In this document: piece by piece, positions 147 through 42,148 of the stretch
Layout: each line of letters opens with the position of its first letter
How positions within the stretch are numbered: position 1 is the stretch's first letter
Assembly (NCBI RefSeq): GCF_024584705.1
Contig: NZ_CP097384.1
Coordinates: 3,038,001 to 3,102,000, forward strand
Length of the DNA stretch: 64,000 nt
From: Blastopirellula sp. J2-11
GTDB taxonomy: Bacteria > Planctomycetota > Planctomycetia > Pirellulales > Pirellulaceae
Direction: 5' to 3'
Position numbers and translations under genes: made by a program
Notes under the pieces: model-generated
What the model was told of the DNA's origin: nothing
What the model saw: only the letters and a program-made list of their open reading frames with translations
Database searches by the model: none

Positions 147-1105
147 AATGTCTTCGCCATGCGCGTCGACTGATAGGCTTCGTCGAAGCCAAGCGTCCGC
201 AGCATGGCGTATCCGGCGAGATCTTCTTTGTCGATTTGGGTCTCGATCCGACCGACGCCGGTTTCGGCAAGTTGCCGCAGCGCCTCGCCGAGCAGATAAT
301 TCGACTTGGTCTGGTCGCCATCTTCCAGCGCTTCGACCGTGACCAGCGCGGCGGCGTGGACGCCCCAAAGTTGGCTGTAGTGCGGCAAGTCGATAAAGGT
401 AGCGGAAGCTGCGACTGCTGAATTTAATTTTGGAATCAAGTCAAATTGCGAACGTTCAAAATGCATATAGATGCAGGAATTGAGCCAGTCGAGCGGCGGC
501 GGACTGTAATTCGCTTCGACCGAAAAGCTGCGGCGAATCTGCATCATTTCGCGACTCACCGCCGGACGAAATCCGTGGATGTTGGATCGCATCGCCAAAT
601 ACTCGCCGATGACTTGATAGTCGCGCTGATCCAACTGATGCCGCAGAACCTCAAACGTCGACGGAACGCCCACGTTGTGCGATCCGCCGGCCAGCCCAAA
701 GTAAAAGGGCCCCAACGGCGGCGCTCCGCCGATGAGCAGTTGCGCTGCGCCAGCTTCCTGCGCCAAGGTCTCGGCCTGATCCAACAGCGCGTTGGTCACT
801 GCCGCATGATCGGCATGTCCGGCGACCAAGGCGAGAGAGAGATAGGCGTAGGAGACGCTTTCGGTTTGGTAATTTAAATCACGCGAGAGCGCCACATGTG
901 CGAAACCGACGAGCTGCCCTTGGTCGACGGCGACCAGGCAAGTTTCGGGATGGAAATAAGGCTTGGCGAAAACGTACGTTTCCATCGAGCCGACCGTCAT
1001 CGGCTGCGCAAGTTGCGCGCCTAACGGTTGGCTGTTCCAAATTTCCACCAACTTCGGTGGGTCGGAATTGAGAAAGCGGCGAACTTCGATCAAGGGCCAG
1101 GGCAA
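143..1105 (-). CDS. GNAT-like acetyltransferase
   Basis: 320 aa, probably a cytosolic acyl-CoA-dependent N-acetyltransferase of unknown substrate. Two regions look GNAT-like. Around residues 45-130 a predicted strand/helix pattern includes LVGFAHVALSRD and AEAGA-type helices. The C-terminal part holds a second acetyl-CoA-binding-like segment with LLGEALRQLAETGV and GYAMLRTLGFDEAY, the usual 'moves up one position in rank, larger catch' GNAT ending. This suggests a tandem or long GNAT. The start is TTG at 1105: an in-frame stop lies at about 1135 and no ATG comes earlier. It is the last gene of a probable four-gene minus-strand run (67 nt after the Rieske gene). The family is moderately sure, the substrate unknown. 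Confidence 0.7.
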   Translation of the reverse strand: MPWPLIEVRRFLNSDPPKLVEIWNSQPLGAQLAQPMTVGSMETYVFAKPYFHPETCLVAVDQGQLVGFAHVALSRDLNYQTESVSYAYLSLALVAGHADHAAVTNALLDQAETLAQEAGAAQLLIGGAPPLGPFYFGLAGGSHNVGVPSTFEVLRHQLDQRDYQVIGEYLAMRSNIHGFRPAVSREMMQIRRSFSVEANYSPPPLDWLNSCIYMHFERSQFDLIPKLNSAVAASATFIDLPHYSQLWGVHAAALVTVEALEDGDQTKSNYLLGEALRQLAETGVGRIETQIDKEDLAGYAMLRTLGFDEAYQSTRMAKTF

Positions 1106-1172
1106 TTTGGAAGTGACGATCGGGGTATTCTCTCAGGCTACCCGATCGCGAGCCTGCACAAAAGATGTCGCT

Positions 1173-1490
1173 CTAGGAACCGCGCTCTTCCATGTCGACG
1201 AAAAGTTCGTCGCCGCGTCGCTCTACCGGAAAGGTTTGCTGCCGAATTTCACTCAGTTCGTGTTTGCCTGACGTCACGTCATATTGCCAACCATGCCAGG
1301 GGCAAGTGACGATCGCGCCGCAGATTCCCCCTTTGCCGACAGGTCCCCCTTGATGGGCGCAAATGCCGTCGATCGCGAAATAGTGGTCATCGACGCAGAA
1401 GAGTCCGATGATGCGACCAGCGACGACCCGCTCCAGACCGCCGTCGGCGGGGACTTCGCGAATCTCGGCGACACGAACCCAATTTGGCAT
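1173..1490 (-). CDS. Rieske [2Fe-2S] ferredoxin-like protein
   Basis: 105 aa, single-domain Rieske protein of the soluble ferredoxin type (NirD/BphF-like), an electron carrier with one 2Fe-2S cluster. The ligand pattern is complete: C44-A-H46 in the first loop and C63-P-W-H66-G-W in the second. I chose ATG at 1490 (MPNWVRVAEI) rather than an upstream start, because the extra 37 residues in the longer frame are arginine/proline-rich and overlap the acyltransferase gene. There is no signal peptide or membrane anchor, so it is probably cytosolic. It sits 31 nt after the acyltransferase stop, so the two are likely co-transcribed. The partner oxidoreductase is not evident locally. Confidence 0.88.
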   Translation of the reverse strand: MPNWVRVAEIREVPADGGLERVVAGRIIGLFCVDDHYFAIDGICAHQGGPVGKGGICGAIVTCPWHGWQYDVTSGKHELSEIRQQTFPVERRGDELFVDMEERGS

Positions 1491-1521
1491 AAGACGGAAC
1501 AGGCAACTCGGCGGAAACGGT

Positions 1522-2490
1522 CTAAGCGGCGCGGCGCGGCGCGTCTGATTCAACGGCATCCGGCGCCGCGGTCTTTTTCGCCTTCTTCGGAGGGCGATCA
1601 TCGCGCCAGCGATTGTGGATCCACCAGTATTGTTCGGGATTGCGGCGGATCATTTTTTCGAGCTGTTCATTGTACCAGCTGGCGAGCTCTTTCACGCCCA
1701 ACGGCGTTTCCGCTTTTAGCGGGTCATAGATCGCGTCAACCGTATCGATCCCCATTTCAAATTGCATCGGCCGGTCGGTGCGACGAAAGTGGGTCACCAC
1801 CAGCGGCGCGCCGCTCGCCATCGAGAACAACGATATCGCCTTATGACATGATGCAGGTCGCCCCATGAAATCGACCCAGCAACCTTTCGGCCCGGCGTTC
1901 TGGTCGCACAACAAGCCGAGCGTGCCGCCATCGTTCATCAGCTTTTCAATCGCCGGTGCGCTCCCTTGTTTCGGCAGAATAAACTGCCCGGTAGCGCCCC
2001 GAAAGCGCTGGACAAAGTCGTGCAAAAATTTATTGTCGAGCGGCCGGGCCACCGTATAGGTCGGAAATCCCATCAACCCGGCACAGTAACCCATCAGCTC
2101 GAAATTGCCAAAATGCCCCAGCAAAATCACCACTGGCCGCTCGCTGAGCATGTAACCAATCTGATTCGAGACATTCTGCAAATCGACATAGTCGCGCCAA
2201 TTCGTGTCATGGATCTTGCGCGGCGCGTGGGCGATTTCGCAAACCATCAACAGCAGATGCCGCCAATTTCGTCGAGCCAGCTTTTTCCGCTCGGCGGCGG
2301 TCATCTCAGGAAAGGCATGCCGCAGATTGGAATCAAGCAGCTCGCCGCGAACTTTGAACACATCGCTGATGAGCCAGGCCAGAAACTGGGCCCCTTGGGC
2401 GCAACGGTCCATCGGGATCGCTTGGACGACGCAAATCGTCAAACGAACCGCCACATAGACCAGGTAATCCGCTACAAGTCGTAAGTTCAC
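1522..2490 (-). CDS. LpxL/HtrB-family lysophospholipid acyltransferase
   Basis: 322 aa, a membrane-associated acyltransferase related to the lipid A late acyltransferases LpxL/LpxM. Evidence: an N-terminal hydrophobic helix (about residues 6-40), the catalytic H-x4-E box as GHFGNFE (H126, E131), and family-typical blocks SNLRHAFPEM near residue 55 and LLCDQNAG in the centre. The C-terminus ends in a Lys/Arg/Ala-rich tail. GTG at 2490 was chosen because AGGGA lies about 10 nt upstream and the hydrophobic anchor starts there; an ATG at 2562 would add unrelated residues. It lies within a minus-strand run after the Gfo/Idh/MocA gene. It implies lipid A or another acylated envelope lipid; the exact acceptor is not determinable. 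Confidence 0.85.
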   Translation of the reverse strand: MNLRLVADYLVYVAVRLTICVVQAIPMDRCAQGAQFLAWLISDVFKVRGELLDSNLRHAFPEMTAAERKKLARRNWRHLLLMVCEIAHAPRKIHDTNWRDYVDLQNVSNQIGYMLSERPVVILLGHFGNFELMGYCAGLMGFPTYTVARPLDNKFLHDFVQRFRGATGQFILPKQGSAPAIEKLMNDGGTLGLLCDQNAGPKGCWVDFMGRPASCHKAISLFSMASGAPLVVTHFRRTDRPMQFEMGIDTVDAIYDPLKAETPLGVKELASWYNEQLEKMIRRNPEQYWWIHNRWRDDRPPKKAKKTAAPDAVESDAPRRAA

Positions 2491-3671: not shown

Positions 3672-4017
3672 CGTGTCGTCCTTTCTAAGGCAGGATGAGA
3701 ATCATTACGCGGGGGAAAGTCGCCCATTATAGACGCTCCGGCCCTCTCGAATACCCGTCCCGCACCAAGTGAAAGAAACCGACGGCGCTCAAAAAATTGG
3801 CGCAGACAAGCAAATGTCGATTCGCTATTTATTGCCCCGCCGCGTCGCTGACAGGGATGCGGCCGCAAAAATTGAATTTGGAAAGGCTCGTCGTTGCTCG
3901 CAAGTTTGCGGGAACGTGCGACAGCCCCCCTCCTGGGTCGAAGCTACTTTTGATGCCGGAGCACGTGGTTAACTGGGTCGACCGCGCCGGCATTCGCTTC
4001 ACGGCGAGTCTTTTTAG

Positions 4018-4052
4018 GCCCCTGGAACTTGTCCTATGCAAGCTCCAGGGGC
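4018..4052. repeat. Imperfect 14-bp hairpin
   Basis: Arms GCCCCTGGAACTTG (4018-4031) and CAAGCTCCAGGGGC (4039-4052) pair with one A-C mismatch around a 7-nt loop. It stands just before the terminator-like hairpin at 4066-4096, and no plus-strand gene is seen upstream. Confidence 0.65.
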
Positions 4053-4065
4053 TGGATATAAGCAA

Positions 4066-4096
4066 GGGTGAGAACCGCAGGGTTCTCGCCCTTTTT
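4066..4096 (+). terminator. Rho-independent terminator-like hairpin (orphan)
   Basis: Stem GGGTGAGAACC (4066-4076) with GGTTCTCGCCC (4081-4091), one G-U pair, a 4-nt loop, followed by TTTTT (4092-4096). It is well formed for the plus strand, but the nearest upstream gene reads leftwards. It may therefore end an unannotated plus-strand transcript. Confidence 0.6.
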
Positions 4097-4216
4097 CAAT
4101 TTCTTGGATCGGACCGTTCGATCAAAATTGTCGAAGGACAAATGGCTAAAGCAGGAGATCAGTGAGCATCGATCTTGGCTCTTCCTTCGTCATTCTCGCC
4201 GGGACCGGACAACATT

Positions 4217-4244
4217 GGACCGGACCGGACCGCTCCGTTTTTTT
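4217..4244. repeat. GGACC pentamer repeat with T-tract
   Basis: GGACCGGACCGGACCG (4217-4232), five bases, then seven T. A single related unit lies just before it (GGGACCGGAC at 4201-4210). The same arrangement recurs at 35398-35425 and 35656-35682, and degenerately at 35744 and 35584. Confidence 0.7.
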
Positions 4245-4285
4245 GGTGGGCTGCCCCAGCCCAGGACAGGACAACAACGTTCTTT

Positions 4286-4316
4286 ATTAGACATTCGTCC
4301 TTAGAAATTAGTCATT
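4286..4316. repeat. Solo arm of the palindrome at 42.1 kb
   Basis: ATTAGACATTCGTCCTT followed by a diverged tail matches 42100-42130, the right arm of the inverted repeat at 42038-42129. Only one arm is present here. Confidence 0.55.
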
Positions 4317-4462
4317 CATTCTCCTCTGAGACCGGGCCAGAAGCATCTGCGAAAAGGTCGTCCCCCGACCCGGGTGATCGGCGGCAGCAATCGGCGCGCA
4401 GCACACCAGCCTCGAATCGGCCTTCGCGGCCGGCGATCAGTCATGGTTGGTTCGGGATTTCC

Positions 4463-4507
4463 TGGGTAGTGGACCCCGGATGCGTGCGCTATGTCAAGCG
4501 ACAATCT
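4463..4507. repeat. Dispersed ~43-bp repeat shared with 37.2 kb
   Basis: Begins TGGGTAGTGGACCCC and includes GTGCGCTATGTCAAGCGACAA. It aligns with 37244-37287 at roughly 36 of 43 bases by eye. On the minus strand both copies carry CTTGAC near the right end, a possible -35 element. Confidence 0.6.
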
Positions 4508-5001
4508 TGACGCGACAGCGGCGGCCGAGAATAACATCCATCCATTTTCTTAGGCCCGGCGGGCCGTCCCAACGAGCCGAGGGCGAAGTCGCGAAGCGAC
4601 GCAGTCGTAGCGTCTACCTGCGACCTGCACTAACATCGCTGTGATGAACCACGCTGTGATCATCGGGCGACCATCAACGGGAAGATAAAGCAATCATGCA
4701 GCCGAATCAAAAAATAGGAATCGGAGTCTTCTAGCTTGTTCCGAGTCTCGAAATGGTAGAAAGAGAAGACACTGGCTGAAAAAGGCCAGTGATACCCAGC
4801 CGTATTTCTCGGCGTTTTTTGCGTTTTCTCGTTCCAGTAATTCTCTGAAAAGCACACGTTCTTTGACGTTTCGTCCATTATTTTGTGCATCTCTTTTGGG
4901 GCGGACATTTAGATTCTCACTGCCGCTCTTGCCTTTTAATTGCAGGACTGCAAATTGAGTTTTCCGAGTCGACAAGAAAGTACTCAAAATCCCTGGGTCG
5001 C

Positions 5002-13315: not shown

Positions 13316-14094
13316 GGGGGTCTTTTTTGTGTCGGGAAAATCTGTTATCCTGTTTTCGTTCAAGTTCGGGCCACTCTGTTCGCGGGAAAAAACATGCCCA
13401 GACAAAAGCGTGCGGATGAAGGGGGTTCGATTTACCATGCTCTGAATCGTGGAAATGCGCGGCAAACGCTCTTTCACAAAGAGGAAGACTACGAAGCGTT
13501 TCTTCGCGTGTTGGGCGAAGGTCTGCAGCGGTATCCGGTCGAACTCTTTTCGTTGACGCTGATGCCAAATCATTGGCACATGGTTCTTCGGCCGTCGCAG
13601 GACGGCATGATGGGCCGGTTGCTGCGCTGGGTGACGGCGACCCATACGCAGCGCTACCACGCTCACTATCATACGGCAGGCGAAGGGCACTTGTACCAGT
13701 CTCGCTTCAAAAGTTTTCCGATTGCCGACGACGATCACTTCTTGGTTGTTTGCCGATACGTCGAGCGAAACCCGCTGCGAGCGAAATTGGTGAAGCGGGC
13801 CGAAGATTGGCGCTGGGGTTCGCTCTGGCGTTGGTCGCAGAAAGCGGATCGCAGCCCCGGCCTACTTTCACGTTGGCCGATTCCGCGGACGCCGAAGTGG
13901 ATCCAGCGTGTGAACCAGCCGCTCAGTGAAAAGGAGCTGAACGCATTGCGCGAGTGCGTCGGGCGTGGTCGACCGTACGGCGATGCCGAGTGGACGCAAA
14001 AGGTAGTGCAGCGGACAGGTTTGGGCTATACGCTGCGCCCCCGCGGTCGCCCTCGAAAAGACCGGGCGTGAAAAAAGACCCCCGTCCCCTTTTT
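13307..14094 (+). mobile_element. RAYT element with perfect 22-bp inverted repeats
   Basis: The left end AAAGGGGACGGGGGTC plus TTTTTT (13307-13328) is the exact complement of 14071-14092, bracketing one tyrosine transposase gene in 0.79 kb. The left end lies in an ISAs1 remnant; the right end supplies the stop codon of the VKOR gene. The G-rich then T-rich ends resemble the REP-like sequences used by this transposase class. Confidence 0.75.
13394..14071 (+). CDS. REP-associated tyrosine transposase (Y1, IS200-like)
   Basis: 225 aa, single-strand DNA transposase of the RAYT branch of IS200/IS605. Evidence: an N-terminal GGSIYHALNRGNARQTLF block; the HUH-type metal site as HWH in LTLMPNHWHMVL; GHLYQSRFKSFPI; and VCRYVERNPLRAKLV, where the Tyr is the expected nucleophile. 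A basic tail (RPRGRPRKDR) ends the protein. ATG 13394 follows GCGGGAAAAAAC. The TGA overlaps the right inverted repeat of its own element. All visible catalytic residues are intact. Confidence 0.88.
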   Translation: MPRQKRADEGGSIYHALNRGNARQTLFHKEEDYEAFLRVLGEGLQRYPVELFSLTLMPNHWHMVLRPSQDGMMGRLLRWVTATHTQRYHAHYHTAGEGHLYQSRFKSFPIADDDHFLVVCRYVERNPLRAKLVKRAEDWRWGSLWRWSQKADRSPGLLSRWPIPRTPKWIQRVNQPLSEKELNALRECVGRGRPYGDAEWTQKVVQRTGLGYTLRPRGRPRKDRA

Positions 14095-35397: not shown

Positions 35398-35425
35398 GGA
35401 CCGGACCGGACCGCAACGATTTTTT
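35398..35425. repeat. GGACC pentamer repeat with T-tract
   Basis: GGACCGGACCGGACCG (35398-35413) followed, after a few bases, by six T. Near-identical to 4217-4244 and 35656-35682. Confidence 0.7.
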
Positions 35426-35490
35426 CGCCCCGCACAACCATCCTCATTGCCGAGGTAGTTTCCACGGCAGGGTGAATCGACGCCACCATT

Positions 35491-35555
35491 GTCGCCTTTC
35501 GCTCCCGCGAAAGTAGCGCGCATAAGACGCTACTTTCGCGGGAGCGAAAGGCGAC
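35491..35555. repeat. Perfect 28-bp palindrome A at helicase 3' end
   Basis: Arms GTCGCCTTTCGCTCCCGCGA and AAGTAGCG (35491-35518) and the exact complement (35528-35555), loop 9 nt. The helicase stop codon begins at the palindrome's right edge. The sequence family also occurs as palindrome B (37319-37394). Confidence 0.85.
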
Positions 35556-37171
35556 TATGGGGCAGATTCGGTCGGGTGCGCAAACCGGTCCGGTTGATTT
35601 TTCGATAGTGAAATCGATTGCGGTGTTCTCACCCGCCCTACGATTTTAGAGAGGCGGACCGGACCGGACCGTTGCTTTTTTTCTGGCGGGGTTGAATAGT
35701 CAATCCAGCGGTAGGTGGGGCGGCGTTCTGATTTTTGTGCGGCGGACCGGACCAGTCCGATTTTTCCGGACTCCAGCAAGCGATTCCATGTGGCCGCGAA
35801 GCGGGTTCCGTTGATGCCGCATTGATCGCGAATTCGCGATTTGGTCGCTTTCGTTTCCTCAACCTTAGTCATTGTCGCGCGAATTTTCGCTTGCAGCCGC
35901 TCCTCATGCGCGGCCGTTTCGCAGGCCTTCGTTTCCGCTTCGATCGCGTCGGCGTCGCGGAGCGTTACGCGCCAACTTCTTCCTTGCGGGGCCGCCAATT
36001 TTCCTTCGTCGATATCGACGCCCCAAACTCCTCCTTGCCCGGCGCAGCCGCCGCAGGTCAGACGCAACCGATGCAGACCGCCGCCAGGCGAATAATTTTC
36101 GCGGCGCTGAATCAACATCCATTGCCGCGCGAAATCGAGACATGCCGAAACATCGGTCGCCAGAGTCGCGCTGCGCGAGATCGCTTGGCGAGACTGACAA
36201 CACAAGATCGGCGTCGCGCCGGCCATGACGCAGCATTTGACCAGGTGTTGCAACTGCTCTGCCTGCGTCTGCTTGTCGGTCGAAGTCAGACGCAACGCGT
36301 CGATCACAATCACTTCCAGTTGATGACGGCGGATCCACGCCCGCAGATGCTCCAAGTGCTTCGAATCGGCAGGGTTGGCGACCGCCAGAGACCAGATCAG
36401 ATTCGGCAAATTGGCTGGGTCAACTTCGCTGGATTCGCTCCAGCGCCGCGCCAGATCGGCCAGCGCTTGCCGCTCGTCATGACGGCTGACATAGCCGACG
36501 CGAAACGGGCGATCGACGGCGATCTGCCCTAAAAACTTGCCGCCGCTCGCCAGCGCCGCGCACAAGTCGACGGCGATCGAAGACTTCATGCTTTTGCTCG
36601 GCCCGACGATCACGGCCGGCTCCTGTCGCACGAACATCCCCGGCAACAGCCACTCGAGCGGCTCTTGCTGCGCGATCAATTGATCGGTGGTCAGATCGAG
36701 AAACGGATTGCCGCCGCCGGCGATGTCGAGCCGAACGAGTTGGCTCTCCGGCGCCAATTGGAACGCCGCCTGATGGGCCTCAAAACGTTTGTGCAAGGTC
36801 GCCGCGTAGTCTTCAAATTTTTTGATTTCGCCGCGGCAATACAAAACGTCGCACAGCATTTCGATCGCGCTCTCTTCGTTATATCCGGCCGCCGCCAACC
36901 GCTTGAAGAGCTCTGGCAGGTCGTTGCAACGGATCCCTTGGGCCCGCATTTCCAGCATCGCGCTGCTGATGTCGTAATGCGACTGATGTTCAAAATATTC
37001 ATGCCGCACCGGGCAAGTCGAAAACAGATCAGGCCGCATCAAAACCACGGCCAGCCAACGCGCTTCGGCGATTTCGCCCCGCGTCAGATTGCGGGTTTCA
37101 AAGTCAACGTGCGGCGTTCTTTGATTCTCGGTCAAGTGGGCGATCAGCCGACGAAGTTGATGGAGCGACAT
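35555..37171 (-). CDS. RepA/DnaB-like helicase or primase-helicase
   Basis: 538 aa. The N-terminal ~130 residues match a DnaB-N-like helical domain (EIAEARWLAVVLMRPDLFST, DISSAMLEMRAQGIRCNDLP). Residues ~175-390 are a RecA-like AAA_25 core with Walker A GPSKSMKSSI, Walker B LEVIVIDALRLT and the motif PILCCQSRQ. The C-terminal ~150 residues are basic with a winged-helix-like segment (GINGTRFAATWNRLLESGKI). It resembles RepA-type hexameric helicases of plasmids, phages and integrated elements. ATG 37171 has GAGGAGG at 8-nt spacing, and the frame upstream encodes palindrome B. Palindromes lie at both sides, and GGACC repeats occupy its 3' end, encoding odd residues such as RSGPVRLSK. Confidence 0.75.
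   Translation of the reverse strand: MSLHQLRRLIAHLTENQRTPHVDFETRNLTRGEIAEARWLAVVLMRPDLFSTCPVRHEYFEHQSHYDISSAMLEMRAQGIRCNDLPELFKRLAAAGYNEESAIEMLCDVLYCRGEIKKFEDYAATLHKRFEAHQAAFQLAPESQLVRLDIAGGGNPFLDLTTDQLIAQQEPLEWLLPGMFVRQEPAVIVGPSKSMKSSIAVDLCAALASGGKFLGQIAVDRPFRVGYVSRHDERQALADLARRWSESSEVDPANLPNLIWSLAVANPADSKHLEHLRAWIRRHQLEVIVIDALRLTSTDKQTQAEQLQHLVKCCVMAGATPILCCQSRQAISRSATLATDVSACLDFARQWMLIQRRENYSPGGGLHRLRLTCGGCAGQGGVWGVDIDEGKLAAPQGRSWRVTLRDADAIEAETKACETAAHEERLQAKIRATMTKVEETKATKSRIRDQCGINGTRFAATWNRLLESGKIGLVRSAAQKSERRPTYRWIDYSTPPEKKQRSGPVRLSKIVGRVRTPQSISLSKNQPDRFAHPTESAP
35656..35682. repeat. GGACC pentamer repeat inside helicase 3' end
   Basis: GGACCGGACCGGACCG (35656-35671) then a T-run ending at 35682. 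A degenerate copy starts at 35744 (GGACCGGACCAGTCCG, then T5), and a partial one stands at 35584 (ACCGGTCCGG). All fall within the coding region's last 200 nt. Confidence 0.65.
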
Positions 37172-37243
37172 AAGAATTGCCTCCTCGCGAAAAGTGAAAA
37201 CTTCAAACTCGCGCAGCGAAAAACCGCCACGAAACCGACCGAT

Positions 37244-37287
37244 TGGGTAGTCGACCCCAGTTCCGTGCGCTTCGTCAAGAGACAATT
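37244..37287. repeat. Dispersed repeat shared with 4.46 kb
   Basis: TGGGTAGTCGACCCC, then GTGCGCTTCGTCAAGAGACA, aligns with 4463-4507. Here it lies between the helicase start and palindrome B. Confidence 0.6.
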
Positions 37288-37318
37288 TTTGCCAGAGCAA
37301 AAAGCCCGGCGCGGCCAG

Positions 37319-37394
37319 CCATAGTCGCCTTTCGCTCCGCGAAAGTAGCGTCTTAAGGATCGCGCTACTTTCGCGGAGCGAAAGGCGACTATGG
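37319..37394. repeat. Perfect 32-bp palindrome B upstream of helicase
   Basis: Arms 37319-37350 and 37363-37394 are exact complements (CCATAGTCGCCTTTCGCTCC, then GCGAAAGTAGCG) with a 12-nt loop. It differs from palindrome A by CTCCG against CTCCCG, and the change is mirrored in both arms of each copy. Confidence 0.88.
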
Positions 37395-41780: not shown

Positions 41781-42011
41781 GCGCGAGTTTTGAAGTTGCG
41801 CTATTTCGAATCAATCGAACGCTAGCCCGCCAGCGCAAGCGAGGGAATACGGCTCGCCACTTCAATCCGGGTTAGGATCGCCAACTCTATTCCCTCGCTG
41901 GCGCTGGCGGGCTAGTGTGACGATTTTCGGTGGATTCGGCCCCTGTTTGATCGTGCTTCACCCGTGTTCAACACTTCCTGAATTGCTAAATAGCGCAACC
42001 TCAATACGCGC
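41781..42011. repeat. Nested inverted-repeat element
   Basis: Outer arms 41781-41806 and 41988-42011 (GTTGCGCTATTT and its complement with imperfect flanks) enclose inner arms 41822-41849 and 41888-41915. The inner arms pair at 27 of 28 bases (CTAGCCCGCCAGCGC plus GAGGGAATA). About 230 bp, no gene; it looks like a non-autonomous palindromic (MITE-like) element. Confidence 0.65.
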
Positions 42012-42037
42012 GAGCGAGGGAAACGCGTTTGGATAAA

Positions 42038-42129
42038 ATGCCGAATGTCTAAATCCTAATGTCTAATGAAGACCGAACGGCCGAGTCGTTTCTTCCTTCA
42101 TTAGACATTCGTCCTTCGACATTAGGCAT
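42038..42129. repeat. Inverted repeat with a solo copy at 4.29 kb
   Basis: Arms 42038-42071 and 42096-42129 are about 34 nt each, with several mismatches; the right arm reads CTTCATTAGACATTCGTCC then TTCGACATTAGGCAT. It ends 20 nt from the DUF1559 stop at 42149. One arm recurs at 4286-4316. Confidence 0.6.
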
Positions 42130-42148
42130 TCTAGTTGAGATGCATGTG

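Follow-up and report, generated by a model that had tools for sequence, protein, structure and literature searches.

A gene for a DnaB/RepA-like helicase of Blastopirellula sp. J2-11 is bracketed by two long palindromes, and a preliminary description of the locus took these for the ends of a mobile or self-replicating unit, or for parts of a hairpin-end replication origin system. Here we ask whether the palindromes and the helicase gene form one element and, if they do not, with which sequences the helicase gene is associated instead. The stretch of DNA analysed, hereafter the window, is 64,000 nucleotides (nts) long, and the following features are referred to by their positions in it.

4202..4505, minus strand: gene-less locus of the same kind (promoter box 4482-4505, GTCC boxes 4202-4230)
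35398..35412, minus strand: GTCC box 3, a triple GTCC, with which the element is considered to end on its 3′ side; adjoins an inverted repeat and a T-run after acnA
35486..35560, no strand: TCCC-type REPIN-like palindrome, lying between GTCC box 2 and GTCC box 3; the helicase stop codon comes from its outer end
35555..37171, minus strand: helicase gene, 538 aa from the probable start ATG 37171 (Pfam, alignment of copies, AlphaFold model)
35656..35670, minus strand: GTCC box 2, a triple GTCC preceded by an A-run and contained in the helicase reading frame
35744..35752, minus strand: GTCC box 1, GTCCGGTCC, inside the helicase reading frame
37249..37291, minus strand: 5′ promoter-like box (sequence motif), core ATTGTCNNTTGACAAAGCGCACGG at 37263-37286 with one mismatch
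37319..37394, no strand: REPIN-like palindrome, TCC type, immediately outside the promoter box

Results

The palindromes and the helicase gene of the window

The downstream palindrome has arms of 33 nts (35486-35518 and 35528-35560) that are 97% complementary around a 9-nt loop and perfect over 28 nts (35491-35518 and 35528-35555), and the upstream palindrome has arms of 32 nts (37319-37350 and 37363-37394) that are 100% complementary around a 12-nt loop; the perfect arms of 28 and 32 bp described earlier are therefore real. When the 64-kb window was scanned for close inverted repeats, the remaining seven pairs were only 78-94% complementary. Each arm contains a small nested hairpin (CTTTCGC-TCC(C)-GCGAAAG), which indicates that each palindrome is built of a loop flanked by two inverted REP-like half-sites. 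The single-base difference reported as mirrored in both arms is confirmed: within each half, the small nested loop gains one C (TCC becomes TCCC), and this holds for both arms; the central loops of the two palindromes differ as well. The stop codon of the helicase frame, TAG at 35555-35557 on the minus strand, is part of the outer end of the downstream palindrome, in agreement with the earlier placement of that palindrome at the stop. Judging from the alignment of helicase copies, the natural start is probably ATG 37171, and the upstream palindrome would thus lie approximately 150 bp upstream of the gene; it is also outside the core of the promoter-like box (37263-37286). The GGACC repeats noted at the 3′ end of the gene were found at 35744-35753 and 35656-35670, and another, the final GTCC box of this locus, lies beyond the downstream palindrome at 35398-35412.

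The protein comprises an N-terminal DnaB-like helical domain, an AAA_25/RecA domain, a C-terminal HTH-like region and a low-complexity tail. Pfam AAA_25 matched with 68 bits, and the AlphaFold model (mean pLDDT 77, pTM 0.55) matched DnaB (2q6t, the best PDB match, E = 8.8 × 10-12) and also the RecA domain of RepA (1nlf). By its profile match and predicted fold, the gene product is a DnaB/RepA-type ATPase, as first proposed. Comparison with a defence catalogue, NCBIfam and PDB sequences gave nothing strong, and no PADLOC family was matched. Between the promoter box and the last GTCC box of the window locus we found no integrase, packaging, structural or other recognised gene and no transposase; the sole long conserved frame is the helicase, with AAA_25 as its only Pfam match.

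A small family of REPIN-like hairpins

A pattern search allowing up to 3 mismatches in the 6.43-Mb genome gave 19 palindrome half-sites, with none in the reversed control. A second pattern added four further places, including the downstream palindrome of the window, and reading of locus L108 added one more, bringing the loci examined in this genome to 15 full hairpins and two solo half-sites, which is a small number for a REPIN family. A promoter box or GTCC box was located within 500 bp of 12 of the 15 full hairpins (11 of 14 when L108, whose hairpin was met during the reading of a box locus, is left out), and the exceptions were one hairpin of a pair around a RAYT-like gene, 915 bp off, and those of L013 and L014, loci without a box. 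The hairpin family thus seems to favour the helicase and box loci.

The association with the helicase itself is loose. A full hairpin is present upstream of 4 and downstream of 2 of the 11 helicase copies in this genome, and on both sides only in the window copy and in L012. Of the 41 helicase copies of three congeners, none has a full hairpin in the 1.5 kb preceding it or the 1 kb following it (L053 being partly masked), and their helicase loci yielded one solo half-site, in L062. Three copies of this genome, L009, L010 and L012, are 97% alike over approximately 1.9-2.0 kb, and the likeness begins at the promoter box upstream of the hairpin. The palindromes are therefore members of a small scattered REPIN-like family and not the ends of the helicase unit. 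Their scatter, the alignment of the copies and the GTCC box beyond the downstream palindrome lead us to reject them as transposon ends, and the proposed pairing of palindromes around the helicase does not extend to the family. Nothing was found in support of the suggested hairpin-end replication origin system; a hairpin-ended replicon is rejected since the palindrome sites lie inside a 6.4-Mb contig.

A candidate for the gene that moves the hairpins was found in L011, where a gene at 4085-4759, encoding 224 aa with an RAYT-type HUH motif recognised by eye, is located between hairpins at 3970-4069 and 4759-4822. It matched NCBIfam REP_Tyr_transpos with 46 bits (cut-off 80) and Pfam Y1_Tnp with 17.6 (cut-off 23). 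From this arrangement we infer that the RAYT-like gene may move the palindromes. As described by Bertels and Rainey (2011, PMC3116915) and in a REP survey (PMC3733652), REPINs, or REP doublets with RAYT, likewise consist of inverted REP-like half-sites with nested hairpins; the present family is also dispersed and flanks a RAYT-like gene, and its change mirrored between the arms fits the compensatory changes in both arms that the former reports as common. Unlike those systems, the present family has only 15 full hairpins, most of them in or beside helicase or box loci, the RAYT-like gene stays below the curated cut-offs, and there is no clear 5′ GTAG or CGTC tag; by eye, the REP end shows GTAG on its inner and GTCG on its outer side.

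Other repeats of the window were seen during this analysis. A Y1_Tnp (IS200/RAYT-type) transposase match of 51.9 bits, one of 8 in the genome, is located at 13430-13771 on the plus strand in a 345-aa open frame, and a cluster of other inverted repeats with arms of 25-38 nts, related to repeats in L007, L008 and L013, occupies 41782-42133.

Taken together, two unrelated kinds of repeat meet at the window locus: the REPIN-like hairpins, and the helicase and box family considered below.

A helicase family multiplied within the genus

The helicase protein was found in 17 of 60 genomes at E ≤ 1e-10. Many copies are present only in four members of this genus, with 11 loci in this genome (G000), 16 in G001, 13 in G002 (Blastopirellula marina DSM 3645) and 14, two of them partial, in G003, and the other 13 genomes have 1-3 copies each. 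The partial copies L094 and L095 were left out of the alignments, the tree and the counts, and L037 and L044 were left out of the protein alignments on account of stops or a wrong frame. In all 52 copies used, the frame of the matched region is open, and approximately one-third of the copies are without most of the N-terminal region. Paralogs within a genome are up to 97-99% identical, and dN/dS among within-genome paralogs was 0.115-0.184 in six groups other than that of the window gene, indicating from the sequence comparison that helicase paralogs are under purifying selection. In the protein tree, the nearest neighbour of 44 of the 52 copies was in the same genome, and clades contained up to 8 near-identical copies per genome.

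Many copies occupy corresponding sites in different species, where the flanks are 70-94% identical and the genes between them usually differ more. This is the case for L010/L054 (flanks 93-94%, genes 81%), L046/L059 (flanks 89%, genes 67%) and L048/L060 (downstream flank 92%, upstream 84%, genes 73%), and an exception is L012/L055, where the gene (81%) falls in between flanks of 86% and 74%. Between this genome and B. marina, L050/L064 and L051/L065 gave dS of 0.32 and 0.35 and look simply inherited. In the remaining seven same-site pairs, again with B. marina, dS was 0.53-1.20, which suggests that these genes predate the species split or were replaced. One site is filled in all four species with copies of different clades (L012, L055, L068, L089), and several are occupied in two or three species.

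We also inspected sites where a copy is missing. At the L078 site, the gene is present in G001, the promoter and GTCC boxes without a helicase are present in this genome and in B. marina, and only 68 bp remain between the matched flanks in G003. The L079 site measures 135 bp in B. marina, and the L009 site has other genes in G001 and G003. When 14 gene-less loci were used as queries against B. marina, several matched an orthologous stretch, and in most of these there was material on both sides; one comparison (L144 with L128) gave a good near-empty candidate that is, however, N-masked in B. marina. Nearly empty sites were thus seen at L078 and L079. No clean insertion was found, nor were terminal inverted repeats or a target duplication; the near-empty sites are too diverged for a duplication to be read. 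As delimited here, the unit ends in a promoter box and a GTCC box, not in inverted repeats.

Several helicase loci carry repeats of other kinds. Tandem repeats of approximately 240-250 bp are located upstream of the helicase in L053, L054, L055 and L060, and in L054 every one contains a GTAGGGTGGGTG hairpin besides a promoter-like box. Further families of palindromic repeats (GTAGGGTCCGC... and GTAGGGCAGGCC...) were seen at helicase gene ends in L072, L078, L084 and L086, and the sequence shared by L078 and L079 ends at a hairpin of such a family.

Promoter-like boxes and GTCC boxes mark helicase loci and gene-less loci

The promoter-like box has a -35-like TTGAC within a TTGTC/GACAA dyad. Searching ATTGTCNNTTGACAAAGCGCACGG with up to 3 mismatches gave 75 sites, distributed over 68 loci, and none in the reversed control; 7 of these loci adjoin a helicase copy and 61 are gene-less. 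The 43-bp box is thus present at 7 of the 11 helicase copies and missing from L049-L052, and an exact GTCCRGTCC box is present at the 3′ end of 9 of the 11, the exceptions being L050 and L052. Ten gene-less loci were picked blind by their promoter box, out of the 61 (in part, the other gene-less loci read had been selected by their boxes), and all ten were followed on the same strand by GTCC boxes at a distance of 106-662 bp, with none on the opposite strand downstream and none upstream; counts in this sample and in the tandem arrays below also admit T at the middle base. Across the genome, GTCCRGTCC occurred 385 times, compared with 98 occurrences of the reversed pattern. The pattern of an A-run followed by the box, counted with overlaps, occurred 321, 568 and 320 times in the three congeners and 0, 0, 1 and 1 times in four genomes of other genera, in which the reversed controls gave 0-8.

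When 42 occurrences of the promoter box found with up to 5 mismatches were aligned, a few of them probably spurious (e.g. the minus-strand one of L110, one of those in L136, and that of L137), information was high only from approximately -5 to +37 and over the last GTCC box, and was near zero outside these two motifs. This result indicates that the motifs appear to be selected and that the remainder is free to drift. Over the 52 helicase copies of the genus, GTCC occurred 7.4 times per 500 bp at the gene end and 1.6 times in the flanks.

GTCC boxes are often arranged in tandem arrays with periods of, for example, 15, 18, 39-40 or 107-108 bp. A hairpin search in the 105-bp units gave 9 examples and no clear consensus. 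Rfam applied to 14 loci gave one match above the gathering score, and barely so (Acido-Lenti-1, L122 687-747); it lies upstream of the promoter box of that locus, and a known structured RNA at the box loci was rejected. One helicase copy (L061 of G002, also L104) has a very long 18-bp GTCC array within the 3′ end of its coding sequence, where it translates into SHDPVP repeats, and in L113 an IS3-like transposase pair, recognised by eye, is inside a 38-bp GTCC-box array (1072-2258, minus strand).

Many viral relatives carry GTCC repeats behind the helicase gene

Single-protein scans, run first on genome contigs and on viral contigs, gave no matches. Helicase relatives were found in 15 viral contigs, 29-33% identical in the matched region, and none exceeded 33% in two viral scans. 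Many of them have GTCC-core repeats right behind the stop codon; these are arranged about a short A/T palindrome and run in both orientations. The number of GTCC plus GGAC per 300 bp in viral loci averaged 10.3 at the gene end versus 2.5 elsewhere, and the gene-end density was unmatched by any other window in 8 of the 10 viral loci tested; these 8 represent, by our own reading, approximately 5 lineages, and the remaining 5 of the 15 loci had too little downstream sequence. Other planctomycete relatives showed such a peak in only 4 of 23 cases, with a mean of 3.5 versus 2.5. An identical GTCCGGTCC box was found behind the helicase in two viral contigs, L190 and L196, of which L196 is among the 8 of 41 loci that the count left out for lack of downstream sequence.

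The viral AAA_25-type replicative helicases therefore resemble the Blastopirellula family in the protein and, in most loci tested, in the GTCC-core repeats at the 3′ end, and differ in two respects. The phage protein of L194 starts with a region that is primase-polymerase-like by eye, whereas the window protein has a DnaB-like N-terminal domain, and the viral arrays are inverted around an A/T palindrome. Inverted iterons of that kind with the present box were found in none of the eight genomes searched, four of them Blastopirellula, suggesting that, if the boxes are phage-derived iterons, only the direct repeats have been kept. Searching viral contigs in the opposite direction, from the repeats, gave 13 stretches with inverted GTCC palindromes, in which the helicase model matched only the two contigs already known, and, among the 80 of 88 stretches with A-run boxes that were examined, two weak helicase-model matches.

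Discussion

Of the mobile or self-replicating unit first proposed for this locus, what stands is a multicopy dispersed unit found at many sites; its palindromic ends do not. As judged from sequence comparison, we consider the chances about even that a phage replication module has been dispersed in these genomes, with helicase copies that have no transposase of their own moving between box loci, and the box loci being under selection. The helicase family would derive from a phage module in which a replicative helicase gene has GTCC-core iterons directly behind it, and the helicase or a partner protein would act at the GTCC boxes. Helicase genes would have been repeatedly copied into, and lost from, pre-existing box loci, the shared boxes serving as landing or recombination sites. 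Box-only loci would be kept by selection, most likely for binding, and thereby titrating, a replication protein, either that of the element itself or that of phages of the same type.

This reading is favoured because the helicase is multicopy in four congeners, with purifying selection and within-genome bursts; because the promoter box has 75 sites against none in the control, and GTCC boxes follow it at ten of ten blind loci; because conservation is confined to two motifs, and the A-run box pattern is frequent in three congeners and nearly absent from four genomes of other genera (320-568 versus 0-1); because the L078 site has the gene in one species, only boxes in two and almost nothing in the fourth; and because GTCC/GGAC peaks at the helicase end in 8 of 10 viral loci, with an identical box in two contigs. 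Against it we count that the analysis brought up neither a transposase nor a clean insertion, and no terminal inverted repeats or target duplication, that the inverted phage array is absent from eight genomes and the GTCC peak appears in only 4 of 23 planctomycete relatives, that 4 of the 11 helicase copies of this genome have no promoter box and two have no exact GTCCRGTCC, and that the RAYT-like gene scores under the curated cut-offs of both matching models. The fuller statement, in which approximately 70 phage-type iteron loci coexist with amplified helicases that land at them and act on them, either as transposase-free spread or as origin-decoy immunity, is plausible, with a probability that we place somewhat short of one-half.

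The box loci may instead be defensive, as chromosomal decoys that titrate the replication proteins of infecting GTCC-iteron phages, with the helicases acting as dominant-negative or competing proteins. In its favour, this box and this helicase family do occur in viral contigs, the promoter and boxes look selected while the remainder has drifted, the tandem arrays with periods of 15 to 108 bp are iteron-like, and the window protein has a DnaB-like N domain, in contrast to the primase-polymerase-like start (by eye) of the L194 phage protein. A precedent is lactococcal Per, for which PMC8965321 indicates that phage origin repeats placed outside the phage could compete for the replication protein; the Per elements described there are cloned, whereas the Blastopirellula boxes are natural, many and chromosomal. 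Nevertheless, the helicase matches nothing in PADLOC, the inverted array of the phages is absent from the genomes searched, and the within-genome gene bursts look selfish, so that we regard a defensive role of this kind as rather unlikely.

A similarly low probability is assigned to a selfish satellite, in which the helicase unit is amplified along with the phage or plasmid replicon that serves as its helper, and then recombines back into the chromosome, leaving gene-less loci as decayed remnants. Up to 8 near-identical copies per genome in clades, the identical REPIN carried along in three copies and the gene-less box loci at a site occupied elsewhere speak for it, but gene-less loci conserve the promoter and boxes only and not the sequence between them, the unit has no integrase, and neither viral scan gave a relative above 33% identity. 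Phage satellites such as PICI, PLE and P4 are small, phage-derived and equipped with replication genes, and they carry integrases together with packaging or interference genes; the present unit, in contrast, is one gene without an integrase in 11-16 copies per genome.

Alternatively, the helicases could be old residents of fixed intergenic sites that evolve in concert by gene conversion, the boxes being regulatory RNA or termination elements unrelated to replication. The site of L012, L055, L068 and L089 is filled in four species and several others in two or three, flanks at these sites are in most cases better conserved than the genes they enclose, some same-site pairs are mutually closest between two genomes (e.g. 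the window copy with L053, L048/L060, L051/L065 and L080/L091), and an A-run plus a G/C box resembles half a terminator. Same-site copies, however, often come from different clades, some sites are gene-less or nearly empty in sister species, and GTCC repeats recur behind the phage homologues, and we therefore hold this explanation to be doubtful. The palindrome-ended mobile or self-replicating unit is highly improbable, since, although the window copy and L012 (2 of 11) have a palindrome on both sides, palindromes are scattered, missing at most copies, and located inside or outside the box boundaries.

In a literature search covering largely titles and abstract openings, a multicopy family of helicases and GTCC boxes in Planctomycetes was not described. 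The palindromes alone are of modest interest as a new small REPIN-like family. The bursts of the helicase raise the question of how copies of a gene can accumulate in one genome when the gene has no transposase of its own. If the boxes bind the helicase or phage replication proteins, the dispersed phage replication module would be a genomic element built on a replication module and not on a transposase, and would possibly be a natural version of origin-decoy resistance.
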